NCBI RefSeq assembly: GCF_000006405.1
Contig: NW_003210538.1
Span: forward strand, 153,110 to 217,109
Source: Perkinsus marinus ATCC 50983
Taxonomy: Eukaryota > Perkinsozoa > Perkinsida > Perkinsidae
DNA length: 64,000 bases
Direction of reading: 5' to 3'
Positions within the stretch are counted from its first letter, which is position 1, and each line of letters begins with the position of its first letter. Position numbers and translations under genes: made by a program. Under the pieces are notes generated by a model. It worked only from the letters and a program-made list of their open reading frames with translations. It searched no databases and was not told the origin of the DNA. Below are positions 29,484-64,000 of the stretch, piece by piece.

Positions 29484-32400
29484 AGTCGGGCATACAAATA
29501 CTTTCCCTAATAGTGATAACTGCTCAGCTCCAACAACCAACATAACATCAGCGATCACCATCGACCCGAGCAGCGTCTACCTTCCGCAGTACATCCAGTA
29601 TTAACAACCCAATACGGCCAAGGCAAGGGAGAAACACAAAATGAAGACCCAGGCGGAATGCTCATCAAGAGCATCCCTGGGAAGACCCTGATTTAATAAT
29701 GCATTCAACATGCGAGGTAGCGCTCATCATTCAAGTCGACTGTTACACGACCGCGTCTAGTGAACTCATCACTAAAATTACAGTACTACAACTGGCCTCC
29801 GGTACCAGCTGGTAAGCCGCGACCTCCAATACGAACTAGCTAGATGCCGCAGGTCTCTAGGTCTTGTTCACGGTTGGACATTCCTACTATTTGCCTCCAT
29901 GGCTCCCGCGACGTGGATCTCAGCTCCCAAAGATGCTTGAGGAGCCGGGGGCTTGCTGCTCGGGGCAACCACTAGTGTGTCACCGACAAGGTATCACCAA
30001 TTCTCATATGATACTTCGCTATAAATTCCAACCGTCCATCTGTCGCTCGAGATGGTACAACCCGAGCTTCTTTAAATGCTGCACATCTAGCTTGTTCTAG
30101 TAAACTGCGTCTCACCATAATAGTAGCGTGGCTCTCGATCTTCGTAGAGAGCTCTCCCCCTCTGTCACGCTTATCATGCGGTAGGAGAGTGTAATTCCTC
30201 AGACAAGGCGTTTCCGTATTCAAAGAGATATCGGAGAGTAACGAACCTCACGTGGCGAATGTGCCTACATGCAGGAGCGCATCTTGGTTACAGACCGCAC
30301 CATTTGTCACGCTGGAAGGTTCGAAAGCAACGATAGTCGCCTTAATGCTGTGTTGATTCTCGCAATGCCTCAATGCATAATGTCAACTGAAAGAAGAGGA
30401 TAAGTCAGGGCTTGGGGAGTCCAGGGGTCCAGGGGCGGACGATACGAGTGAGAGAGGAATGGGAATAGGCTTCACAGGAGAGAGGATAGAAACCTGGAAA
30501 CTAGAAGGTGAAGATAATCGCGCAGTGGAAAAATGAAAATGGCAAACGAAAATTTATCCGCAGCGGAGCGAAGTTACCGAGAAGTCGAGCGATCTTCACA
30601 TCCACTTCCGTTCCAGAAGTTTCGCAATCAACTTTTTCTCTTGCGAGGTGCTCTGTTGTTTGTCCATATGTGTGTTCGTCTTTTCAATAGGGCACCGAAA
30701 AGTTGTGATTGTCCTTGGCTCTCAACCGCTATAACCTTTAGTATGAAGGCCATCTATGCTGGTGGATATATCCATGCCGACCTCTTCCTGGCAAGTCAAT
30801 ATTCGCTATTCTCTTTATGGGATGTTCTACACACTTGCATCATAGCATCCAGCGAGCACTACATGTGTCTTGGTTAGGATACATGCGGTGCTCGCGACTC
30901 GGAGTGGACGACTACTCTGCGTGAGGGCGCAATATCAGCACTGATGGGTGTATTTCTCCTTCTTTCGCCTCAACTCGCTTCGTTGTAGCTGAAAGCATTT
31001 GTAAAATCGCCATGAGGTGATGGGAGTCAATGGTGGATCAAAATGGACGATGTTGGGTCCGAGATAGTTTACATTCTCACTGCGTCATTGATAAAGTAAG
31101 AGCCCTGTCATGGAACTTATACGTGTTCAGCGATTTGCCTTACAGCAGTTCGGAAAATATACGTTATACGATCCACGTTGGTGTTGTTTTGTTCTAGTCT
31201 TCAATGTGAGGGAAACGTAAATATAGAGGATTTCCTGTATCGTCTGACTGGCTTCAACTGGGCGAACTAACACGCAATACTTTTTGCAGGCTTCTTGCAC
31301 TCGTACCAGTCTTGTTCATGATGACGGTGATGATGCCCTCGACGATGATCCGCTAGCAGGTCAGCTGAGGGGGTTGATCTCGGTAGTAGGGCTGGGTAGT
31401 AATTCAGGCCTTGGAGGGCCAGGTGGAGCCCGGGGGCTACGTCGTTGTCAAAGTGTTTAGTTTTGTTGCCCTTGGGTCGCTCATGACTCTCGTAGTGCAG
31501 CTCCCAATGAAGTCATTGTGTTGAGTATCACTCAACGAGTAAGTTCGCTACTTATGTCATGGGTATGATAGTAGCGAGGAGAAGCTCGTGCTCCCTTGAC
31601 ACGACCGGGAAATCCAGCTTTGAACGCAAAATAATCTTCACCTCAGCGTCATCTCCTTCTACAGCAGTCATACTGTGAAGGAAGTGGTGTAGCTGGTTCC
31701 AGGAGCGGTCAGGCCTCGAGTTGAGGCTCTTGTGTACGGACGACAACATCATCGTCAAGACGTCGGGACGCCATAAGTAGCAGTCAACTGTTCTCTATGA
31801 GATGGAACAGGTGAGAAGAGTGTTGGTGGTGGAGAGTATGAGGAATGCGGGATACATACTGTTATAAAGCGCCTCGTACCACTGTGCTATTCAGAAATTC
31901 ACCTGCGAATAGGGACACTATACCCTTGCAGAAGAATTTTCCATGCACGAGTAATGAACGTATTTTAATTGTTTGGATGCACATAAATGCTTTGGGTAAG
32001 CGGAAAGAGGATCGTTTAGTTCGGTCCCCAAGTGGCGATTTCAATTTCACGGGTAAGGAATACAATTTCGTGAATTTTTCGTGATGGACTTTGCCCGTCT
32101 GGAGATGCCAGAGTGTGTGATTGCAGCGTTCAGATGGAATGCCGTGATCGAGTTTAAAGAGAGCATAAAAGAATTGAGAGGGCAAGACACAGCTGTTGTG
32201 GAGGGCTGGGGACCTCACAAATATGGTACGGAATCCCCATCAACTTACGCACGAGATCACCATTGTGGGCAGACAACATCACAAAATCTTGCCGTGTGAC
32301 GGTCGGGTATTGTCTCCTGAAGCCGATATGAAATTCTGATAGATTTTAAGATTACCAAATTGAGAAGGTAAATCGTATGTAAGACATCCTCCAGCACTTC

Positions 32401-32805: not shown

Positions 32806-35800
32806 ATGCATAGCATACTAACGGGATCAATTCGCTCTACATTAATCGTCTTTGGGAGTCTCATTTTCGTTACTGGGGGTGTGCAAAGGGGAAGTTCCAC
32901 ACAGGACAGGGTACGCTGTGATGAAGTGACGGACGAGTGGTATGAGTTTTGCGCTCAGACCGCGGACGCTCTCGCAGATCAATGCACCGGTATCGTGATC
33001 AAGGGGAGACACTTGACGAAAAGTCATCTGTCTAAGGCGATGTCCACGCGGGACTACCCCTACACTCTATGGGTAACTAGGACTACGTAGAGAGCTTCGA
33101 CGATCCTATCTCGTAGACCGTTGGGGAAGCCCGTGGAACCTTTACGAAACACTCTTGTGAGCAAGTGAAGACCTCCCCGAGAAGGAACAAGGAGCTGCAG
33201 TATGAAGTGCAAACTAAATGCGATGGTCTGCCAACGACACTCTACTTCAATGACGAGGAGGCCGCCGTAGACTTTGCCGTGCGATGGGGTCATCTCCAGA
33301 CGGTAAATACATAATCAACCTTCGAGTCATTTCTGACGGCCCTTCCCCAGTATGAAGTGGATCCGGCGGTGCTGCGCGATGGCTGGGTCAGCAAGAACCC
33401 CTTCGCGCGATTCGCTGTTTTCAAGAAGAAGTTGACTGCTGCTCATGTGAACTTCGACAGAAGTTGGAGGCCGGTTGAGAGATACCTAAAGGTGCCTCTG
33501 ATGGCTGTTCATTCTGTTGGTCGAAGTGGATCTCGTTCAGATTGGCAGCAAGACATATGTCTACTGTGAAGGGGTGTCCTCTGGACCTAGTAGTAAGAGT
33601 GACAAGTGGAAACTCCGTGTGACTTGCACTAAGGAGAATTCTAAAAAGACGAGAGCGTTCGATATAGAGTTCAAGAACAAGGACAGTGCGACGAGTTTCG
33701 CCACAATATGGGGAGCGTATACGACGGAGGTGAGCAATTTCGTGGCGCAGTGACGGTAAATCCCCGGTATTGTCCTCGTTCAGGTGCCGATACCTGCGAG
33801 AATGATCAAAGACTCGACCATCCAGGCGGCCGAGGTCCTCGTCAGTCCCGCCACTGGACGAGCAAGGAAGAGAGTTCTTCGCGTAGGCTACTTGAAAGAA
33901 ATGCGACACTGGAGTCGTGTTTCAGCTCGGAGATAAGAAACCGAGAATCTGTCGCGGCGTAGCTGACGTCTTGTATAAGGGTGATGCCGCTGATGTCGTT
34001 GCGGAGTGCGATAAGCAGCTACTGACGATACCATTCGGTGCCTACCAACGTGCAGAGAAGTTCGCTGCCGTTTGGGGTGGTTTCAAGAAGGTCTGCGTCT
34101 TCTCTCCCTATCAATGTTAGATGCCAGTGGTCATCGTTCAGGTGGATGCGGATATTGTCGAGAAGTGTTCCAAGATGGAGATAGCTGGTCATCCCGACGA
34201 TATCGTCAGAGCAACGTCAGACGTCGTGTCGCTGGGCAGGAAGATCGCCGCGGGCCGCCTGGAGGTAGCCATTGGCTTTCATTCTCGCGCAGGACTTCGC
34301 TCCGCTACCCCTAGAACTACGTTGTTGGCCTTGTCAGCTTGGGATTAGAAAACAGGTGTACTGTTTTACTCAGACCAGTGATGGCTCGATGCTACGCTGT
34401 GCGCGCGTGAGTGAGCCGGTATCATACGAGGGAGGCATCGACAAGTACGTGGTGAAGACCAAGTGCCAGGGCCGCACTACTAAGGTTATCTGCGATGACG
34501 AGGATGCTGCCTGGAGATTCTCAGCCCAGTGGTCACATTTCCGTGCGGGAGTAAGTCACACTATTTTCACTCTCATACAACAACTTAGCTTCAAATTGCT
34601 CGATCCTTCAACACCTGTCATAATGGAATCTTGTCATTGTCGTAATAGGTCTCTACTAACCTCGGTCTAGTGAGTGCCTCCAAGCGTGTTGATGTCCACC
34701 ACAATGGCAAACGCTTACCGTTCACGCTTGTCACGGCTAACATCGAGAGCCACGTGACCTCGCAGAACGTTCGGATGCGCTGGCTTGGGGTAAGAGCCTC
34801 TCCTTCCGACTCCTTTAAACTCTCATCTCAGCTTCGCTATGCTGGCACATCCATTAAGGACGATTTGGATCTATCTCGACAATGGTTCGTCTGCTCCAGG
34901 GTGAAGAATATCAAAGAGACTGATGGCGGTATGACCATCTCCCCTCATTTTAGTCATGAAGAGTGTTTCTGCTATTCAGGCGAATTCCACGTCGTCACCA
35001 CCTGTGGCCTGTCAATTCGCAATCGCATCCCCACTCCTGAACACAGTGACAACGAGGTGGACGTTGTCTTTACTAAGAGGGACGAGGCATACGACTTCGC
35101 CATGCAGTGGGGTCAATACAATCCGGTGGGTCTATCCTGTATCTGTGATTGCTTTGATCATTGGTATGATGCCAGGTGAATGCTCGTGACGTCGGGGTGA
35201 TGTATGCAACTGAACCCGTGGTAGATCTGGTCACTGCAGGCTTCTACCGCGATACGTTTTCTGGGAAACTGACGGGGAGGGTGTTCACAGTAAGATGGCG
35301 CTTCTAATGGAGCTCTGATTCACGGCATGTCTGCAGACTCGGGACACTAACTTCGAATGCGGTGCAATATCTGCTCTGGAACAGCAGACCAACGGTGATG
35401 TTCATATTCGGACTGAGTGCTCGGCCGAGCGGAAAAGGGAATATCTCCCTTCGGCTGACGTAGGATGCCGATTTCCAATCGTCCAAGAGGCAGATGGTCT
35501 TCTCGTTCTCAGACAACACTGGCGATGAAGCGGGCTGAGGCAGCTGTGAAATGGGCTGTCAAGTGGGGAGATGTTGCCAATCCTGAGGTGGGTGTTAATA
35601 GCATTGTCGGGTCGCAGTTGAACTTCACTGGCTTACATCACCGTAGCAGAACTCTCGAATTATGGGTTGTCAGATCCACATGGCTGCGGCTATGGTATCT
35701 GGCGCTAGTGCGAACGTTGAGGGCCAGGTCACAGGGACTGTGAGCATCGCCAAGTTGGTCTATGCCCCGACGGGAGCTCTGCATAGTAGGGTTATCGAGG

Positions 35801-38800
35801 TGAGGTCGACTGTAGATGGACAAGCTCGAATTCACAATGGATATCTTGTCTCAGATCAATGACGACAGCGACAAAGTGTTCGTCTATAACTGTGAAGGCG
35901 TCTCATCGGACATCGCCGTTCAAGGCACTTCGTACACCGTCAAGGCAAGGCCTCGGCGCATCGGGTCTCTCGATAACCCTCCCTTATTGAACTATCAACA
36001 CCCTCAAAGGCCATCGAATTATCTATACAGGTTTTGTGTGGAACTTCCACTGTTCACGTAACCTTTCCCAGCCAAGAACTTGGAGTTGCTTTCGCTCGCT
36101 ATTTCGGCGGCATGCACAACGCTAATGTAAGCATAAGAACATTTATGCAATCACTAGGCGAGTCTAGCTACCACTGCTGCGCGGTATCACAGAAAATCAT
36201 CACAGTATGTTATCATGCAGATTGAATCTGATGCGGAGTTCATCGGATCGTGTCCGAGTGCCGTCATTGGCACCGGTGGTGTTCACGAGTTGAAACACGC
36301 TCGGCTGCGAGAAGAGACAGGCACCGGTGAAGTGAAGAGGATTCTTGTTGTGAGACACTTCCAAGCACGTTTGAGTCTTGCGGAATTTCAACCTTGTGAG
36401 GTTCACGGAGAAGAGAAAGAGCTCAGCTGTTCTAACATTGTGAACCCTCCACAGTTCGATGACGGTGTGTACAAGATATCAGTCATTTGTGAATCGAAGC
36501 CTGTCACGATCACTTGCACGGACTCCGATCCAGCTGTGCTCCTCGCCACTAGATGGGGTGCATATCCTCGTTCGGAGGTCAGTTTTCTAACCGAGAGGCT
36601 GGGGGGCATTAGTTACGATGTTTCTATTCAGCTCGGAGTTGAGCTCTATCCTGGAGTGTGTTCGAGCGCTCGACTGGGGAATGACGAAGGTTGGACTGTC
36701 ACACGACAGACCGTCACCATGACAGGAGCAAGCAGGAGTTTCGTGGTAGGTCTACATTAAAGTGGCAACATAACTTTTTCGGAGCGCCTTGGTTACTCTC
36801 GCACTCTTGCACAGCTCCGGTGGCTCAATCGGATAGAGCGTTGGACTTCTAATCCAAAGGTTGCGGGTTCAAGTCCCGCCCGGAGTATTTTTTCTGTTCA
36901 TCCTCTATCCTCGAGTTGCAGGTTGAGAAGGCTGGAACTTCCACCCAAGTCACTTGCGACGGGCTGCAGCAAAATCCACAAATCGTATCTGATGGAGTCG
37001 AAATAAGCATTGACTGCCGTGAGGGAAGTTCTGGAACCCCTAAGAAGGTGAGATGTGGGTAGACAAACGGGGAACTTGATTTTTTGTGGTGATTTATTTT
37101 ACTTTTACGACTGAATGCGTAGTGATACGAATATTTCAGTTGGAACTGCTCTGCAGTACTCCGTTCGACGCTATCAGGGTATGCAAAGGACCTCTGTTTG
37201 AGAAACAAGATGCTGTGGTGAGTCTAGGTGTATCCTTTCCTGTGGGTACCTGTCATCAGGTGGAAGTCGGCAGCAGAGTTCGCAGCGCCTGCGACACTGT
37301 CACAGTCTCTGGTCAGTCGACATCGATGCACCTGACATCAGCAAGCATACAGGGCACGACTGTGGTCGTCGATGTAGGGTATCGGCTCATTCTCTTCTGG
37401 CTACTTCCCATCTCTAGGTTGCGGCTGCTGATGAGTCGAACGCACAACAGTTCTCTTGCACACATTTCTTTGGATCTCCCGAGGCCACTGATCATCAGAC
37501 TCTCGTTCTCCGTGCGCAGTGCGGAGAGGAGGTGGATCATACGAAACCAGGAAGATCCTAACTGGCAACCACCTCCCTTAGATATTAAACTTTGAATGCA
37601 AGGACACGGCTGCGGCGCTGCAGCTAGCTACGTTTGGGCAGATCGACCAGCCAGCAGTAAGTCGATCGTGTACGTTAGGAAAGTCACAGTCTATATTGTA
37701 GATCGCCCTCCAGCAAGGATTGATCAACTCTTGCGCTGAGGTGAAACAGGAAGGTATTTCGAATGCATTCACTCTATCAAAGGTGACACGTGAGTTGGAA
37801 TCTGTCGAGTTGTATGTTAAACTGGTAGGCTACGTACCGGCCTAGCTTCGTGAAGACATCGGGTTACTCCTTCGTCATTGGCTCGGAGCAGGATCTTAAA
37901 AGATGGTTAACGGTACGGAGGCCATGTTCCCGGGGATGAGACCGATTTCGACAGATTACACTGAGAAACGATGACGAGCCGGGTTACGAAGACTCTGACT
38001 TTTTGCTCTCCTGCAACGCCGTGGGCTCTTCACCAGAGCCACTCTCCGCCCTTGATAGGAGCGCTGACAAGTACAAAGTAACCGTGGACTGTGAAAGCGC
38101 TCGAGGAACGGGTGGGAACACCAAAGTAGAGGTAGGTGCGGTAACTATCACCATTTTGTTGGATAAATTGAACATCAGGTGTTATGTGATGATTTCCATA
38201 ACGCCATGCAACTTGCTACAGTTTGGGGCTCTCTGGATAGTTCACAACCGGTAGGTTCCGCTACATCAACGCTCCATCTGTCGCACTTCCAATCTGTAGG
38301 CGAATATAGAGTTGAAAAGCCTGCATACTCATCTGAAGGCAGCATGGCTTGACACTACGAAAGTGGAACCCGATACGGTTCGCATGTTCGTCGCGCGCCC
38401 CGAGGGAGAAAAGGACGAGGGAAGCATCCTTCAGGCAAGTCTAGAAGCCGTGGAGAGGAGAGACTCTTTCCTTTTTTAGATTCGCTCAAGCTCCTACAAG
38501 TGCGACCCTAATGCAGCGCACCGCGTTTACTTCAAGCAATTCTTCTACTATGTTACTATGCATTGTAACGAGCTTTCACAGGATAAGGTCACCCTGGGGG
38601 AGCCACACAAGGTGACGCTCATTGCCAACAATGAAGAGGCTGCGCTCACTATCGCGCGAGCCTTTGCTAAGATACCTGTTGACAAGGTAAGAACTATTCG
38701 TTATTGTTGAACTCCCACTGTCAAGTGTGCCTTGCTGAAAATCGTCCATGGCAGGTGTGGATTGATCACACGCTGTACTTCGCTGGCGAGGAAGGAGCTA

Positions 38801-39675
38801 CTATGATCGGCGATACCCAGACTGCTTTGACGGAGGCATACGTGAAGGTCTTCCCGAGAGAGTACCTACTGGATGTAAGGACTCTATAGCGTTGTGGAGA
38901 ATTGAAGCTTGGCTCGCTTATTAGTTCAGCGGCGCGTTCCAGTACAGCTGCAATGAAGCCTCGCAGGCTCCGAAGTACACGTCAGACAATAGGTATGAAG
39001 TTACGCTAACATGTGGCAAGCGTGACGATGATGATGAGCCGGAGCAAAAAGATCAAGTCGTGACCATCGCCTTCTCCACGGATTCCAAGGCCATTGGTTT
39101 CTCTAATGCATTTGGAGGCCTACTGTACCACGAGGTGAGGAATGACTCAGCCGGTCGAGGAGTCTATCCAGTAGCTTTGTCATCAGGTTGAGTTCGATTC
39201 CACTATCCTTCATACTGTGGACTACATCTCACTCGTAGCAGAACAGCATATGCAAAGGGAAGAGATATACCCACTCAAGAGAGCTACCGTGGAGTTCGAT
39301 CTCAATGGTCGTCTCACTTCTCGTCGTATCGAGGTGAGCTGATGCCCAGCTTGTGGCCGCGCCCTCATCTTCCTTTCTCAGTTTTTACGTGCGGATGAGC
39401 ATTACGGAGGTGGCAACGGCAAACGCACTTATCACCCCGTTAAATTCGAGTGCGATGAGGAGCTCCTCCTTGACCGCAAGGCTGATACATCTGGTCGCAT
39501 CATCGCCGCGACAGTAACTGCGACATGTGTTGAGACCTATGGTGGATTCCATCAGCAACATAGCGATAAGATTAAGGTTGCTATGGCCTTCCGGAGATCC
39601 CCTGATGCTGCGGAACCTTTCATGAACTGGTGGCGCGGAAACTTTAAAGTTGTTGATAATAAAGAGGTGTTATAG
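32806..39675 (+). CDS. Large secreted multi-repeat protein, unrecognised domain
   Basis: The ATG at 32806 starts a signal peptide (STLIVFGSLIFVTGGVQ). The first intron (33073-33116) joins in frame to TVGEARGTFTKHSCEQVK. The rest is a series of about 12-14 diverged units of roughly 110-140 residues, each split over two or more exons. Each unit ends with the same pattern: V-x-x-x-C, then a strand, then A..(F/L)A..(W/F)G. Examples: YEVQTKCDG...AVDFAVRWGHLQ; LRVTCTKEN...TSFATIWGAYT; VVKTKCQGR...WRFSAQWSHF; VVTTCGLSI...YDFAMQWGQY; ISVICESKP...VLLATRWGAYP; VTLTCGKRD...IGFSNAFGGL. It stops at 39673-39675 after NWWRGNFKVVDNKEVL. No transmembrane segment is seen at the end, so it is probably secreted or surface-associated. 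I do not recognise the domain; a beta-sandwich fold is a guess. One intron contains a tRNA-Arg. It might be two adjacent genes, but I see no internal stop plus new signal peptide. Confidence 0.75.
36814..36887 (+). tRNA. tRNA-Arg (TCT)
   Basis: Acceptor GCTCCGG pairs with CCGGAGT, A discriminator at 36887. The D-arm is GGCTCAATCGGATAGAGC; anticodon arm TTGGA-CTTCTAA-TCCAA gives TCT. The T-arm is GCGGG-TTCAAGT-CCCGC. A T6 run follows. It lies in intron 36746-36921 of the multi-repeat gene, whose flanking exons join in phase 0 (SRSFV|VEKAGTST). Confidence 0.95.
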
Positions 39676-42188: not shown

Positions 42189-43301
42189 TCATTCTGTAGG
42201 ATAATAAGGTTTAGGTAAGCTCACAACCTCCCCGGGCCGTATCGGCAAGTCGTCCACTCTCGATGCATGCAGCTGCATCGCCGGCGCTGTGAACTTTCCG
42301 CAGCTACACTTAAGTCCATACCAATTCCAACTGCCCAGCTTGGCCCCACAGGTACACAGGAGCGTCTGCGTGCTGACAAACTCCGCTCCGCTGTTGGTCG
42401 ACTTAATAACGTCTACCATCCATTCCATAACTTCTATGAAGTAGCTGGTGCACTCCTTTCCACCATGAACAATGTTCATATCACCACACAGTGTTCGCGA
42501 ACACCGGCCACATCGCAGTCGTCGTCTCGTCCCCCTCCCAGGTCGTAAAGCAAGGATTGCCTCTCGCACTGCTTGCGGTCGGCTTTCGAATGAAAGACTA
42601 TATTTCCGACAGATACGTAGGTAAAGCACATGCGGCTCTTCAGCGTTCACCACCTTACTAAGGAGGAAGTTCACTTTCTCCTCAGGCCTCTCCTCCCCGA
42701 CCTCATCCCTATACAACTCGAGGAGAGCCCCCCGCCAGTCGAACCCCTCCTGCTTCGGCTCTTCAATCACAGCCCCCTCGGCAGTTGAATCAGCCAATCT
42801 TCTGCCTGCCCAATACTGCCGGTGCTCCTCTGTGTCGAGACTCATGTCAAACTTGTACGTGCTTCCCCACTGCCTCAGCTGCTGCCTGAAATTCTCTGAT
42901 ACCTCAATGCCCTCCTCCTTCTCATGGACCATCCCTTCGACCAGGTCGAAGTCGAGACCCCATGCCTTCATCAGATACGCGCAAATCACAGCCGCACTAC
43001 GGCACCTGCCAGCCTGGCAATGGACCAGCACTTTGCCATGGTGGTCGAGACAATACTTCATGAACCCCACAGCCTTATCGACATGCGGGAGGATGTCGTC
43101 CTTACCATCATCCCATAGCGGCACATATTCGAAAGCGATCCCCTCAGGAGCCTCTGCCAAGGTTTCCCCTTCAACTACAGCGTTGCATCTTAGTATTGCC
43201 GTGATGCCCCGTTTGCTGCGGAGACGGGACCTCTTCAAACAGGCATCAGCCGCCTCTTGATCTCCAATGAAGATTCCAGGGAAGATCTCATGTAGAATCA
43301 T
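42189..43301 (-). CDS. Dual-specificity phosphatase YVH1/DUSP12 with C-terminal zinc finger
   Basis: YVH1/DUSP12 dephosphorylates proteins and, in yeast, releases Mrt4 during late 60S ribosome assembly through its zinc-binding tail. This is a single exon of 370 residues. It begins MILHEIFPGIFIGDQEAA, the usual DSP entry strand. The catalytic loop VHCQAGRCRSAAVICAYLM has the HCx5R residues H94, C95 and R101, and the general-acid aspartate is likely within PLWDDGKDD (62-69). The C-terminal third has RLRCGRCSRTLCGD, then LLCTCGAKLGSWNWYGLKCS and CGKFTAPAMQLHASRVDDLP, the characteristic zinc finger of this family. The length is close to other YVH1 proteins. The ATG at 43301 is the natural start. 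Catalytic and zinc-binding residues are intact. Confidence 0.92.
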   Translation of the reverse strand: MILHEIFPGIFIGDQEAADACLKRSRLRSKRGITAILRCNAVVEGETLAEAPEGIAFEYVPLWDDGKDDILPHVDKAVGFMKYCLDHHGKVLVHCQAGRCRSAAVICAYLMKAWGLDFDLVEGMVHEKEEGIEVSENFRQQLRQWGSTYKFDMSLDTEEHRQYWAGRRLADSTAEGAVIEEPKQEGFDWRGALLELYRDEVGEERPEEKVNFLLSKVVNAEEPHVLYLRICRKYSLSFESRPQAVREAILALRPGRGTRRRLRCGRCSRTLCGDMNIVHGGKECTSYFIEVMEWMVDVIKSTNSGAEFVSTQTLLCTCGAKLGSWNWYGLKCSCGKFTAPAMQLHASRVDDLPIRPGEVVSLPKPYYPTE

Positions 43302-43390
43302 CTCAAAGCTGACCGATTAGCGACAATCGTTACCACCCTTCACTCAACAGAGGGAACATCAAACAGAAACTCTGCATGACAAATAACTGT

Positions 43391-46356: not shown

Positions 46357-47769
46357 TTATTTGACCTCCTTAGGGGTTGTGGCAACACACTTACCGAGCA
46401 TAACAACACCATTACCTTCCATAAGGGCAACACGAGAGAGACCCTCACAATGCTTGAAGGTATCAACCACGAGATGCTGAAGAGGTTCGAAGACGACCTC
46501 GGCCATCTCATTAGACTTCAAGGAGTGGGGATCCTCCATTTTCTTACCACCGGTCTCCTTGCCGACCTTCCAGTTGATCTTGGTAAGCTTGCAAGCGGAA
46601 CGGCCAGTACGGACGAAGGCGATGGGAGAGTAGCCGACCTTCAATTCACCAGGGACATCCAGAATCTGGACCTGGGCAGTGAAGGTACCAATGTGTTGAA
46701 GAGTCTTATCAGCCTTGGAGATCATGCAATCGCCAACGCGGGGCATGTTATCCTTGTTGAGACCCTTGACGTTGAGACCGACGTTATCACCAGGATAAGC
46801 CTCTTGCTCACGCTTGTGATGCATCTCAATGGTGAAGACCTTGCCGCCGCAGGGGGTAGCGGGGGTATGAGTGGGCATGAAGATGACATCCTCGTTGGGC
46901 TTGACAACACCCTGCTCAACGCGGCCAGTTAGAACATCACCGACACCCTTGATCTTATAGATACCGGAAAGGGGAACACGCATGGGAGCATCGGTAACAC
47001 GCTTAGGGACAGTAGCGAACTTCTCAAGAGCATCGTACAAGGTTTCAACATGAATCTTCTCGGTCTCCTTGACAGTACGCTGGACATCCATACCCTTCCA
47101 CCAGGCCATCTTGTCGGACTTCTTGATAAGGTTATCACCGCACCAGCCAGAGATGGGAAGAATGGGGACGCACTTCTCAACGAAGTCCTTCTTCCAGCCA
47201 ACACGGCCGAGCATGTTCTTCATCTCATCACGGATCTCGGTGTAACGAGCCTCCTTGTAGCCGGCAACATCGGAATCCATCTTGTTGACACCAACAATCA
47301 ACTGCTTAACGCCCAACAAGTTAATAAGACGGGCATGCTGACGGGTCTGACCCTGGATCTCACCAGCCTTGTGGTTACCACGGGCAATGGCGGTACCGAA
47401 GTTACCATCAGCGGGAACCATGAGGAGGGCAACATCAGCCTGAGAGGCACCGGTGATCATGTTCTTGATGAAATCCCTATGGCCGGGGGCATCAATAACG
47501 GTATAATGCCAAGTCTCAGTGAAGAACTCCTTGGTAGTGCAAGCAATGGTAACACCACGCTCACGCTCCTCCTTTTGGCGATCCATATAGAAGGCGAAGG
47601 CGAAGGAGGACTTGCCAAGACGGTCGGCTTCGGCCTTAAGCTTCTCCATCTCTCTCTCGGAGACACCGCCGAGTTCGAACAACAAACGACCGGTGGTGGT
47701 CGACTTGCCGGAATCAACGTGACCGCAGATCACGATGGACATATGAGTCTTCTCTCCAGTGGCAGCCAT
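46357..47769 (-). CDS. Translation elongation factor 1-alpha, copy 1
   Basis: EF-1alpha delivers aminoacyl-tRNA to the ribosome as a GTP complex. One intact exon of 470 residues, starting MAATGEKTHMSIVICG. The GTPase motifs are present: GHVDSGKST (G1), DAPGHRDF (G3), NKMD (G4). The end reads LGKCVATTPKEVK. It has the usual three-domain length and no intron, in contrast to most neighbours. It differs from copy 2 at scattered C-terminal positions (for example KIHVETLYDA vs KFHVDTLYDA, EQEAYPGDNV vs EEQALPGDNV, ATTPKEVK vs ATSAKDVK). The 5' two-fifths are nearly identical at DNA level. A 106-bp tandem array follows its 3' end. Confidence 0.97.
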   Translation of the reverse strand: MAATGEKTHMSIVICGHVDSGKSTTTGRLLFELGGVSEREMEKLKAEADRLGKSSFAFAFYMDRQKEERERGVTIACTTKEFFTETWHYTVIDAPGHRDFIKNMITGASQADVALLMVPADGNFGTAIARGNHKAGEIQGQTRQHARLINLLGVKQLIVGVNKMDSDVAGYKEARYTEIRDEMKNMLGRVGWKKDFVEKCVPILPISGWCGDNLIKKSDKMAWWKGMDVQRTVKETEKIHVETLYDALEKFATVPKRVTDAPMRVPLSGIYKIKGVGDVLTGRVEQGVVKPNEDVIFMPTHTPATPCGGKVFTIEMHHKREQEAYPGDNVGLNVKGLNKDNMPRVGDCMISKADKTLQHIGTFTAQVQILDVPGELKVGYSPIAFVRTGRSACKLTKINWKVGKETGGKKMEDPHSLKSNEMAEVVFEPLQHLVVDTFKHCEGLSRVALMEGNGVVMLGKCVATTPKEVK

Positions 47770-48107
47770 GGTTGTGAAGTTTCTGGGAAAAAATCTCCAA
47801 TCAATCTACAAACATGAACATAAAGGTACACGACCGAAAAACTACACAGAAAGGGCAACATTCGACTCTCCACAACATCCTCGCAGGAAACGTATAGCGA
47901 AGCTAAAGATTCTCTTCAGCGAACACTATTGTGTCCAATCTGGAGTATGGAACTCATTTGCTCCTTCGATATCATATGCTCTTGTAGGGACATGTCTCTA
48001 TGTGCTAAGCTTAACTTTCGCTGCAGTATCACAACACATCTTATCTTGCTCGGTGGATCCCGCGCCGGTTTCGCCAAGAAACCCAACCCAACGCCTTAAC
48101 AAAATTG

Positions 48108-52396: not shown

Positions 52397-53809
52397 TTAC
52401 TTGACATCCTTGGCGCTAGTGGCGACACACTTACCAAGCATGACAACACCGTTACCCTCCATAAGAGCAACACGAGAGAGACCCTCGCAGTGCTTGAAGG
52501 AGTCGACAACAAGGTGCTGAAGAGGCTCGAAGACGACCTCGGCCATCTCGTTAGACTTCAAGGAGTGGGGATCCTCCATCTTCTTGCCACCGGTCTCCTT
52601 ACCGACCTTCCAGTTGATCTTGGTAAGCTTGCAAGCGGAACGGCCAGTACGGACGAAGGCGATGGGAGAGTAACCGACCTTGATCTCACCGGGGACATCC
52701 AAGATCTGGACCTGGGCGGTGAAGTTACCGACGTGCTGAAGAGTCTTATCAGCCTTGGAGATCATGCAATCACCAACACGGGGCATGTTATCCTTGTTGA
52801 GACCCTTGACGTTGAGACCGACGTTATCACCGGGAAGAGCTTGCTCCTCGCGCTTGTGATGCATCTCAATGGTGAAGACCTTGCCGCTGCAGGGAGTAGC
52901 GGGGGTATGAGTGGGCATGAAGATGACATCCTCGTTGGGCTTGACAACACCCTGCTCAACGCGGCCAGTGAGAACATCACCGACACCCTTGATCTTGTAG
53001 ATACCGGAGAGGGGAACACGCATGGGAGCATCGACGACACGCGCGGGGACAGTAGCGAACTTCTCAAGAGCATCATACAAGGTATCCACGTGGAACTTCT
53101 CGGTCTCCTTGACAGTTCGCTGGACATCCATACCCTTCCACCAGGCCATCTTGTCGGACTTCTTGATAAGGTTATCACCGCACCAGCCAGAGATGGGAAG
53201 AATGGGGACGCACTTCTCAACGAAGTCCTTCTTCCAGCCAACACGGCCGAGCATGTTCTTCATCTCATCACGGATCTCGGTGTAACGAGCCTCCTTGTAG
53301 CCGGCAACATCGGAATCCATCTTGTTGACACCAACAATCAACTGCTTGACGCCCAACAAGTTAATAAGACGGGCATGCTGACGGGTCTGACCCTGGATCT
53401 CACCAGCCTTGTGGTTACCACGGGCAATGGCGGTACCGAAGTTACCATCAGCGGGAACCATGAGGAGGGCGACATCAGCCTGAGAGGCACCGGTGATCAT
53501 GTTCTTGATGAAATCCCTATGGCCGGGGGCATCAATAACGGTGTAATGCCAAGTCTCAGTGAAGAACTCCTTGGTAGTGCAAGCAATGGTAACACCACGC
53601 TCACGCTCCTCCTTTTGGCGATCCATATAGAAGGCGAAGGCGAAGGAGGACTTGCCAAGACGGTCGGCCTCGGCCTTGAGCTTCTCCATCTCTCTCTCGG
53701 AGACACCGCCGAGTTCGAACAACAAACGACCGGTGGTGGTCGACTTGCCGGAATCGACGTGACCGCAGATCACGATGGACATATGAGTTTTCTCTCCAGT
53801 GGCAGCCAT
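52397..53809 (-). CDS. Translation elongation factor 1-alpha, copy 2
   Basis: Intact, intronless, 470 residues, same strand as copy 1 and exactly 6040 bp upstream of it in start position. G1 GHVDSGKST, G3 DAPGHRDF and G4 NKMD are present. The end reads LGKCVATSAKDVK. Compared with copy 1, the first 660 coding bases differ at about eight positions, apparently all synonymous, while amino-acid changes cluster in the last 60%. The upstream and downstream flanks differ from copy 1, so each gene has its own promoter. Both frames are open and both look functional. Confidence 0.97.
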   Translation of the reverse strand: MAATGEKTHMSIVICGHVDSGKSTTTGRLLFELGGVSEREMEKLKAEADRLGKSSFAFAFYMDRQKEERERGVTIACTTKEFFTETWHYTVIDAPGHRDFIKNMITGASQADVALLMVPADGNFGTAIARGNHKAGEIQGQTRQHARLINLLGVKQLIVGVNKMDSDVAGYKEARYTEIRDEMKNMLGRVGWKKDFVEKCVPILPISGWCGDNLIKKSDKMAWWKGMDVQRTVKETEKFHVDTLYDALEKFATVPARVVDAPMRVPLSGIYKIKGVGDVLTGRVEQGVVKPNEDVIFMPTHTPATPCSGKVFTIEMHHKREEQALPGDNVGLNVKGLNKDNMPRVGDCMISKADKTLQHVGNFTAQVQILDVPGEIKVGYSPIAFVRTGRSACKLTKINWKVGKETGGKKMEDPHSLKSNEMAEVVFEPLQHLVVDSFKHCEGLSRVALMEGNGVVMLGKCVATSAKDVK

Positions 53810-55825
53810 GGTTTTGCGCGGAAAACGTGTAAAGCCTGCAAGAACAACATCAAGGGTTACCCCAAAGGACTCCTAATCTCAAGCGACACGACCTCAATTC
53901 TTGTGGCATTCACCAAATCATGAAGGGCTAACGAGAAACTTGTCTGTCGTTCGAACCGTAGCTTCGCTGCTATACCAAAATCGATCACGCTTTGTGCACG
54001 CGTTCAAATACCAGCGCATGTTCATTGTGTTGGGCGTCTACTTCGTAAGCAGCCGTTCGTTTTCTTTCCGATTCGACTAGGCATAGGATTGACTACATAT
54101 CCTCTCTTCCACAGCTCCATTCCTACGAATTGCGTCTACCAAATGTGGAAATAACTACACCAAATACCTCAAAATTACCTTCTTCAGTACTACAAGCCTT
54201 CACCCGACGAGTCCGCTGCTTTGTGTCACGTGTCCCTAACTAAGAACGACTCTCAGTGGCAATAAATAACCCAACCATAAAGATATCGAAATGTCATATG
54301 TGCTTAGTCGGTGATATTAACTACTGCTACTGAAAACGATGACATCTCTGAGATTCATCTAAATATGAAATAATATACTTTCCACACTTCCCTACTCTTA
54401 CCTTACCAGTTTGATCCCATCAAAACTAACTAATCCTAACAACTATCCATAGTCAGCTTTGTGTCGCCCGCAGCTGCTAGAAGTATCTTCTCATAGATTG
54501 TGTCCATGTCCGACACAAAGGATTCCTGCAACTGCGTCTGTGGTGCAAGTCGTTTCAGCGCACTTGCACACAATGGTAGCGTGTGTGTAAACTATTAATC
54601 TGTATTTTCATACCAACATTATTACATACACGTACAATTATTACATATTACGTACAATCTACCATGTCAAACGTGTATAATTTAGTTTCCACAAAAAAAT
54701 ACCACCATTATTGTTCTGTCCTGATACTAAGTGACATAAACTATATAAATAGTACGATATAATATACTTTAATATGATATAATAGCAGTATTACTAATAT
54801 GATGACTTGTGAAATTTAATTATATATTATTTTGATATAGTTTATACTGTATTGTATCTATTAGTGAGAATATAAGGTATATATATCTGTTAACAGACAG
54901 GGAGGGCTATAGATGAGGATATTTCTAACAATATCAATAGTGGGTTAAAATAATATACGATTATCCGAGCAAGGTGGCATGCTTCTTTATAGTCTAGCTT
55001 GTAGTTCTTTTACCTGGCTTGGTATATTAAGCCGTGGGAAAACTATTTCTGTGATAGAATATCACTCAAACCGCTCGGGAGGGATGGGTAATGTATGCTT
55101 GCGAACGATAGTTCTTGCTTCCAGTTGTGGAATACATCGGTTTATGCACCGTTCTGTAACATTGGGAAGGTTGCTCACGTAAGTGTGGTATTGTGAGTTT
55201 TATTAGGAGTTGTCTATTGCTTTCTGCATGAGCCATCATTGGAAGCTCCTTCGGCTGCTACTCTTCGTGTTTCTGGTAGTATGCTGGGGTTGTGAATCCG
55301 TCCTGTGGGACAAATTGTTTTAAGCGCATATCCATTTTATCAATTGATCTTCGGATGTTTCTGTCGGATTTAATCATGGTAGAGCGTAGTGATGCGAGCA
55401 ATTATATATATAATTATATATCATTTAATATAGCATTTAATTATATATATTTCTAATGTTGGTAATACGTAATGTAATATAGATAATGTCACATGATAAT
55501 AATGGAGTTTCACCACCCTAGTGATATGAAAAACACTAGTGAAAAACATATTTCACGACTACTGCATGGCGCAAATTTCAGGGTTTTCACCGAGTTTTAC
55601 GCCACTTCACGTAAAACGGGTGAAACTCCAATATACAATAAATATATATTAATACATCTATAGCCACCATATATGTATTTATACGGATATCCATATTAAT
55701 AATAAATTAGATGATAATAATAGCATTGAAAATCTTTCCGTTCACTTCGAAAATGAGTTGTCAAGGAAGAGTCATCGTCACCACGTAGGGAGCTAGGCAG
55801 ACCTATTCACCCATCCTGAACCTAT
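53810..55825. other. AT-rich intergenic region
   Basis: The first 700 bases have ordinary composition and would hold the EF-1alpha copy 2 promoter. From about 54580 to 55740 the sequence becomes strongly AT-rich, with many TATATA/AATATA stretches, unlike the rest of the window. No coding frame is supported; the frame at 54979-55182 has no motif. A family B element lies at 55503-55634. Confidence 0.6.
55503..55634. mobile_element. MITE-like family B, second copy
   Basis: Ends GGAGTTTCACC and GGTGAAACTCC are inverted repeats. The interior includes GTGATATGAAAAACACTAGT and CACTTCACGTAAAACGGG. About 130 bp, non-coding. It matches the intronic copy at 2350-2448. Confidence 0.85.

Positions 55826-61829: not shown

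Positions 61830-63176
<1,347 letters not shown>

Positions 63177-63366: not shown

Positions 63367-64000
<634 letters not shown>

Follow-up and report, generated by a model that had tools for sequence, protein, structure and literature searches.

A stretch of 64,000 nucleotides from the oyster parasite Perkinsus marinus ATCC 50983 (contig NW_003210538.1, positions 153,110 to 217,109 of the forward strand; hereafter the window) contains, at positions 32806-39675, a run of exons that a previous sequence-only reading had taken for a large secreted protein built from 12-14 diverged copies of a domain it did not recognise. This locus raises the questions of whether these exons form one gene, whether the repeated domain belongs to any known family, and what such a protein may do. 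The analysis described here points to a single gene, referred to as the array gene, which encodes a signal-peptide-like start followed by 14 units. On sequence comparison the array unit represents a new domain family, which has to date been met in the genus Perkinsus alone, and its fold is likely, though unproven, to be that of the PH-like superfold.

Gene model

The gene model was built on an alignment of four genomic copies, with exon borders transferred to other copies by alignment, and comprises 36 exons and 35 introns, with 4761 nt of coding sequence for 1586 amino acids. It starts at an ATG immediately preceded by an in-frame stop and ends at a TAG (39673-39675), which confirms the limits given in the sequence-only reading. 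Introns of the window copy are 42-176 bases long, 33 of them with GT-AG and two with GC-AG splice sites; in all four copies the reading frame is open without frameshift and every intron is GT-AG or GC-AG. In a comparison of the window copy with C223, a copy at a second locus, identity is 78.6% over the exons, which show 6 gap columns, and 62.4% over the introns, which show 355. Four annotated Perkinsus proteins (P0001, P0002, P0003 and P0004) align without gaps over 10 residues across 29, 31, 29 and 34 of the 35 junctions, respectively, and between them leave no junction unspanned. The database gene models depart from the 36-exon model at 1 to 6 junctions each; the P0001 model retains intron 18, and exons are skipped or missing in P0001-P0003. 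Taken together, the region looks like a real single gene.

Repeat units and their origin

Exon 1 encodes the hydrophobic start and exons 2-36 encode the 14 units, the top of the range proposed earlier. The usual unit consists of a linker exon and a C-exon carrying the motif C...C...A..FA..WG, with extra introns in seven places. When each unit was scored against a profile of the other 13 and compared with 2000 shuffles, units 1-13 obtained 18.7-47.1 bits with no shuffle scoring as well. Unit 14 is recognised weakly (4.8 bits) and is therefore counted as a unit by its place and core cysteines. Control sequences, namely reversed units and pieces of three other window proteins (n=35), reached at most 3.3 bits against the all-unit profile.

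At the tryptophan position of the predicted C-terminal helix, nine units have W and four have F, with neither in unit 9. The eight WG-type ends quoted from the sequence each have a W codon of the model no more than 3 bases away; of these codons, seven indeed belong to a WG (codons at 33285, 33709, 34073, 35108, 35564, 36554 and 38224), and the one quoted at 34528 proved to be WS, with its codon at 34530. The net charge differs along the protein, being +9 in unit 2, +8 in unit 3 and negative in units 6-11 and 13-14, down to -11 in unit 13. Such a charge polarity could serve head-to-tail packing or the binding of a charged partner.

Introns of the array gene are in phase 0 in 34 of 35 cases, the sole phase-1 intron lying within unit 5. 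The chance of such a bias is 1e-9 if 50% of introns are assumed to be in phase 0, and 4e-7 if 60% are. Unit edges or linker/C-exon borders host 28 of the 35 introns, all 28 in phase 0, so the similar breaks noted earlier in the units were correctly seen. The units appear to have multiplied as exon pairs of phase 0-0, in line with the exon-unit duplication suggested from the sequence.

Each of six sequences has two core cysteines in every one of its 14 units, the columns having been chosen by eye in the window protein and then followed across the alignment; their spacing in the window protein is 19-26 residues. Six units have a further cysteine in the linker, and five of these six, but no other unit, have another where the last strand ends. 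Both are thus found in five units, the linker cysteine alone in one (unit 1), the last-strand cysteine alone in none and neither in eight (Fisher p = 0.003). In unit 9, which holds a fifth cysteine, the linker cysteine falls in a gap of the P. olseni database protein, which is without that exon. The linker and last-strand cysteines probably form a second disulphide joining the linker exon to the C-exon, and since they occur together, the two exons are argued to form one domain.

Relation to known families

Searches against Pfam returned a single chance match for the whole protein (ATP-grasp_3, E 0.12, under its cut-off) and, for 21 units, matches to nine families, each represented by a single member (the best at E 0.026), none of which was accepted. 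No PH-type, Ig-like or lectin family was listed for the whole protein or the 21 units at E up to 10, the filters of this search discarding most matches above about E 0.1. A profile search of the PDB gave one chance match with an E of 1.3. In the protein database, where the searches require shared 5-residue words and a fixed length range, the whole protein found four matches at E 1 among 7728 candidates, all representing this gene in Perkinsus; an alignment of units 2-6 found none at E 1 among 7998 candidates scored; and a unit-pair alignment, scored against 2815 candidates at E 10, found four, each a piece of the array gene (one from P. marinus, one the window itself and two matching the PMAR019671 copy). 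A second gene carrying the unit was not found in these protein database searches, and a six-frame genome search with one 61-residue piece recovered only the four known copies. The gene names occur in no paper of the literature searched, and searches on Perkinsus repeats, the secretome and secreted PH-like folds gave nothing on the array protein, most subscription journals being outside the search.

The relatives are four hypothetical proteins annotated without function: PMAR020114 and PMAR019671 of P. marinus, FOZ63_018940 of P. olseni and FOL47_009933 of P. chesapeaki. They belong to the same family, with 66-97% identity over 52-100% of the query in each one's best local alignment: PMAR020114 matches the window gene at 97% over 91%, the P. 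olseni protein is 70% identical over 100% of the query, and the P. chesapeaki protein 66% over 99%. The last of these is fused in its annotation with SRP54 and papain-family domains. The whole-protein search gave one protein cluster for P. olseni and one for P. chesapeaki; the P. olseni cluster holds 13 sequences, which does not give the copy number. Because these searches matched the array unit to no family profile, no solved structure (by sequence) and no relative outside Perkinsus, it is considered a new domain family. The sequence-only reading had put the protein forward as such and had failed to recognise its domain, and it appears to have been right on both counts: no Pfam profile matches, and relatives were found only in Perkinsus. 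The confident match to a known family, for example of Ig-like or lectin type, that would have contradicted it did not occur by sequence.

In general plan the array protein resembles surface proteins of other parasites with tandem cysteine-containing domains, such as the apicomplexan 6-Cys and SRS proteins, which are secreted strings of small disulphide domains, as is proposed for the array protein. The 6-Cys and SRS domains, however, are beta-sandwiches with other cysteine patterns, and no such Pfam family was listed for the array protein.

Predicted fold

The fold was approached through two units modelled with AlphaFold from different alignments, unit 8 as a contiguous stretch retaining one 17-codon intron and unit 1 on the database protein P0007. 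Both models are weak overall. The best model of unit 8 has strands followed by a helix, in the order of a PH domain, four of its five models being worse; the C-terminal half of the unit 1 model is confident, with a predicted local distance difference test (pLDDT) score of about 94 at residues 81-120. In the Foldseek comparison of unit 8, an approach that had been suggested together with the first description of the repeats, the top two rows were USP37 PH chains (prob 0.98 and 0.90), and 48 of the 50 VIA rows listed were of the PH-like superfold by our own classification. For unit 1, 48 of the 50 VIA rows listed were PH, PTB, FERM or GRAM-type, again as we classified them. A beta-sandwich or lectin fold was not seen among the 50 matches listed for either of these weak models.

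The array units are like members of the PH-like superfold (PH, PTB, EVH1, Ran-binding and FERM-F3 domains) in the predicted order of strands with a final helix, in domain length (about 100 residues) and in the structural neighbours of the two models. They differ in giving no sequence-profile match, and the array protein differs in starting with a signal-peptide-like segment, in a cysteine pair that never varies and in having 14 units in tandem; PH domains are usually single and located inside cells. The unit tryptophan is presumably one helix turn later than the conserved tryptophan in the C-terminal helix of PH domains.

Putative secretory signals

The 19-residue hydropathy mean has its protein maximum of 1.81 in a stretch starting at residue 4, which agrees with the signal peptide proposed earlier; the segment is called signal-peptide-like on the basis of its hydropathy. 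No membrane segment was seen by this measure, as 19-residue stretches starting after residue 40 average at most 1.04.

N-X-S/T sequons are absent from each of the four P. marinus copies (1586 residues), although shuffled versions of these sequences contain 7.3-7.5 on average; a count of zero was reached by 0 to 2 of 2000 shuffles. P. olseni and P. chesapeaki have two sequons each, a number matched or undercut by 26 and 39 of 2000 shuffles, respectively. All these counts come from related copies that are not independent. The control motifs show no comparable depletion, the reversed motif occurring 8-11 times and the shifted motif 4-8 times. Four other open reading frames of the window contain 1, 3, 1 and 0 sequons where 1.7, 2.5, 0.6 and 0.7 are expected, small counts that serve as a sanity check. 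PMC5562741 describes secretory proteins as being marked by the loss of sequons from buried sites. The depletion would support passage through the endoplasmic reticulum in an organism that glycosylates, and entry of the array protein into the secretory pathway is supported, short of demonstration.

Copies, selection and history

In the P. marinus genome four copies of the array gene were found at two loci, each with two near-identical copies (C229, the window copy, with C70; C223 with C267). Over the gene the DNA identity is 96% between the window copy and C70 and 97% between C223 and C267, and the latter two are 74% identical to the window copy. Comparison of the two loci gives a ratio of nonsynonymous to synonymous substitution rates (dN/dS) of about 0.13 at a dS of about 1, and the near-identical copies give 0.17-0.20 when compared with each other. 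Purifying selection acts on both loci. On a midpoint-rooted tree of six sequences, the two P. marinus loci group together to the exclusion of P. olseni and P. chesapeaki (support 100/100). The individual units of the window protein are 56-84% identical to those of the other two species, none falling below 56%.

At C223 and C267, the region upstream of the array gene shows extended similarity to the SRP54 portion of the P. chesapeaki protein. Upstream of the window copy and C70, 10-11 kb were examined, and only SRP54 scraps of about 25 codons were found there. We infer that a segment with SRP54 and the array gene was duplicated, the second SRP54 then decaying and the array gene being retained at both loci. 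Such retention, next to the apparent decay of one SRP54, would mean that both copies matter.

Proposed role and alternative explanations

The array protein could be a secretory protein with a signal peptide at its start, followed by 14 domains in a string. Each domain, about 100 residues long, would most likely be a beta barrel of seven strands with a C-terminal helix closing it, as in the PH-like superfold. A core disulphide would staple every domain, and in five units a second disulphide would run from the linker exon to the last strand. An exon pair of phase 0-0 would have been duplicated in tandem to give this string, before the sampled Perkinsus species split. The string may form a long rod, soluble or matrix-bound, with domains that bind peptides or other ligands much as those PH-like modules do that are not lipid binders (EVH1, PTB). 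The protein would then be a conserved component of a secretory compartment or wall of the parasite and not a variable host adhesin. As a whole, this reading of a secretory PH-like-fold array acting as a conserved multivalent scaffold seems to us evenly balanced; the domain disulphides and the PH-like fold are supported, if not proven, the scaffold function and location we infer only, and the scaffold role taken by itself we hold to be somewhat less likely than not.

Several alternatives bear on the steps of this proposal. That there is no true single gene, and that unrelated or decayed exons have been strung together by chance, might be argued from a model built on DNA and protein comparison, and from the partial disagreement of the database models. 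This is nevertheless hardly credible, given that an identical 36-exon model is open in four copies, that exons diverge less than introns, that annotated proteins bridge every junction and that dN/dS is about 0.13. As to the fold, the units could represent some other small beta barrel with a helix, such as a shortened lipocalin-like or a new beta fold, the likeness to PH domains then being a product of poor models. We regard this as somewhat unlikely, as two units modelled from different alignments yield the same PH-like majority, and a lipocalin is normally longer than the roughly 100 residues of a unit.

The role raises a further alternative, already raised by the sequence-only reading, in which the protein is a surface or secreted adhesin or host-contact protein whose repeats bind host ligands. 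The signal-peptide-like start, the repeated cysteine-bearing modules and the parasitic nature of the organism are in keeping with it, and the basic units 2-3 and acidic later units could bind charged ligands. Nevertheless, an adhesin appears unlikely: hydropathy reveals no membrane segment that might anchor it, both loci are under purifying selection, every unit keeps at least 56% identity to either other species, and P. olseni and P. chesapeaki have a single protein cluster each, even if that of P. olseni is of 13 sequences. Conservation along the whole length, low dN/dS and the absence of an anchor are unlike a variable host-contact protein, though compatible with contact as such, so this part of the earlier interpretation is not upheld. 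Since the protein is conserved over its full length in three species and no large or variable family was seen in the searched databases, a structural or matrix role, as in the scaffold proposal, fits better than a variable adhesin.

Features of the locus and other genes in the window

The coordinates of the units and other features are given in Table 1. Besides intron 17, the window copy has a GC-AG site in intron 31 (38435-38479), shared with C70; the same intron is GT-AG in C223 and C267, indicating a donor change between the loci. Outside its tRNA gene, intron 21 is only 50% identical between the two loci, which suggests that the nested tRNA was retained through the duplication.

Other genes of the window include two very similar single-frame open reading frames with EF-Tu/eEF1A domains, which we take to be EF-like (EFL) GTPase genes; both carry a long open frame on the opposite strand. 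A tubulin gene identified by Pfam is beta-tubulin-like by our reading of its sequence and adjoins the 3' part of an apparent alpha-tubulin gene, likewise assigned by reading the sequence. A dual-specificity phosphatase is encoded in a single frame, and its cysteine-rich C-terminal part resembles, in our reading, a zinc ribbon.

Table 1. Features of the array gene and other genes, in positions of the window
Feature	Position	Strand	Remarks
Array gene	32806-39675	+	start ATG 32806, stop TAG 39673-39675
Exon 1, start codon and hydrophobic signal-peptide-like segment	32806-32910	+	gene model, hydropathy
Unit 1, exons 2-3	32959-33302	+	47.1 bits; 0/2000 shuffles
Unit 2, exons 4-5	33351-33729	+	43.1 bits; 0/2000 shuffles
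Unit 3, exons 6-7	33784-34090	+	22.1 bits; 0/2000 shuffles
Unit 4, exons 8-9, second cysteine pair	34142-34550	+	37.8 bits; 0/2000 shuffles
Unit 5, exons 10-12	34649-35125	+	40.9 bits; 0/2000 shuffles
Unit 6, exons 13-15	35176-35587	+	23.9 bits; 0/2000 shuffles
Unit 7, exons 16-18	35674-36126	+	26.7 bits; 0/2000 shuffles
Intron 17	35945-36030	+	GC-AG in 4/4 copies
Unit 8, exons 19-20, second cysteine pair, fold predicted	36221-36577	+	44.5 bits; 0/2000 shuffles
Unit 9, exons 21-23, divergent helix end, second cysteine pair and fifth cysteine	36632-37217	+	18.9 bits; 0/2000 shuffles
Intron 21	36746-36921	+	contains tRNA gene
tRNA-Arg(TCT) in intron 21	36814-36887	+	ARAGORN; Rfam 74.7 bits; identical in 4/4 copies
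Unit 10, exons 24-26, second cysteine pair	37260-37656	+	20.9 bits; 0/2000 shuffles
Unit 11, exons 27-30, second cysteine pair	37702-38250	+	44.2 bits; 0/2000 shuffles
Unit 12, exons 31-32	38300-38686	+	18.7 bits; 0/2000 shuffles
Unit 13, exons 33-34	38755-39134	+	40.7 bits; 0/2000 shuffles
Unit 14, exons 35-36 and stop codon, weakest member	39187-39675	+	4.8 bits; 5/2000 shuffles as good
SRP54-like scraps upstream of the array gene	31742-31813, 32181-32255	+	E 0.04 and 2e-5
Dual-specificity phosphatase	42189-43316	-	single frame
EF-Tu/eEF1A-domain open reading frame	46357-47805	-	single frame
EF-Tu/eEF1A-domain open reading frame	52397-53872	-	single frame
Tubulin, beta-tubulin-like	61830-63176	-	Pfam; type from sequence reading
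Apparent alpha-tubulin, 3' part	63367-63999	-	continues beyond the window

Implications

The family provides a clear case of exon-pair duplication, in view of its nearly uniform intron phase, and of sequon depletion, and if the predicted fold fails it would still be a new domain family of one genus only. A broader proposition, which we place slightly short of evenly balanced, is that the Perkinsus lineage moved a PH-like domain into the secretory pathway, where it was stapled by disulphides, purged of sequons and multiplied to a 14-domain extracellular array. To our knowledge no secreted array of the PH superfold has been described earlier, and this would be the first. If the fold is true, a module otherwise met chiefly in intracellular signalling would have been rebuilt as an extracellular, disulphide-stabilised building block, the PH-like superfold would gain a new variant in an uncommon setting, and this group of mollusc parasites would possess a conserved, genus-specific secreted protein made of it.
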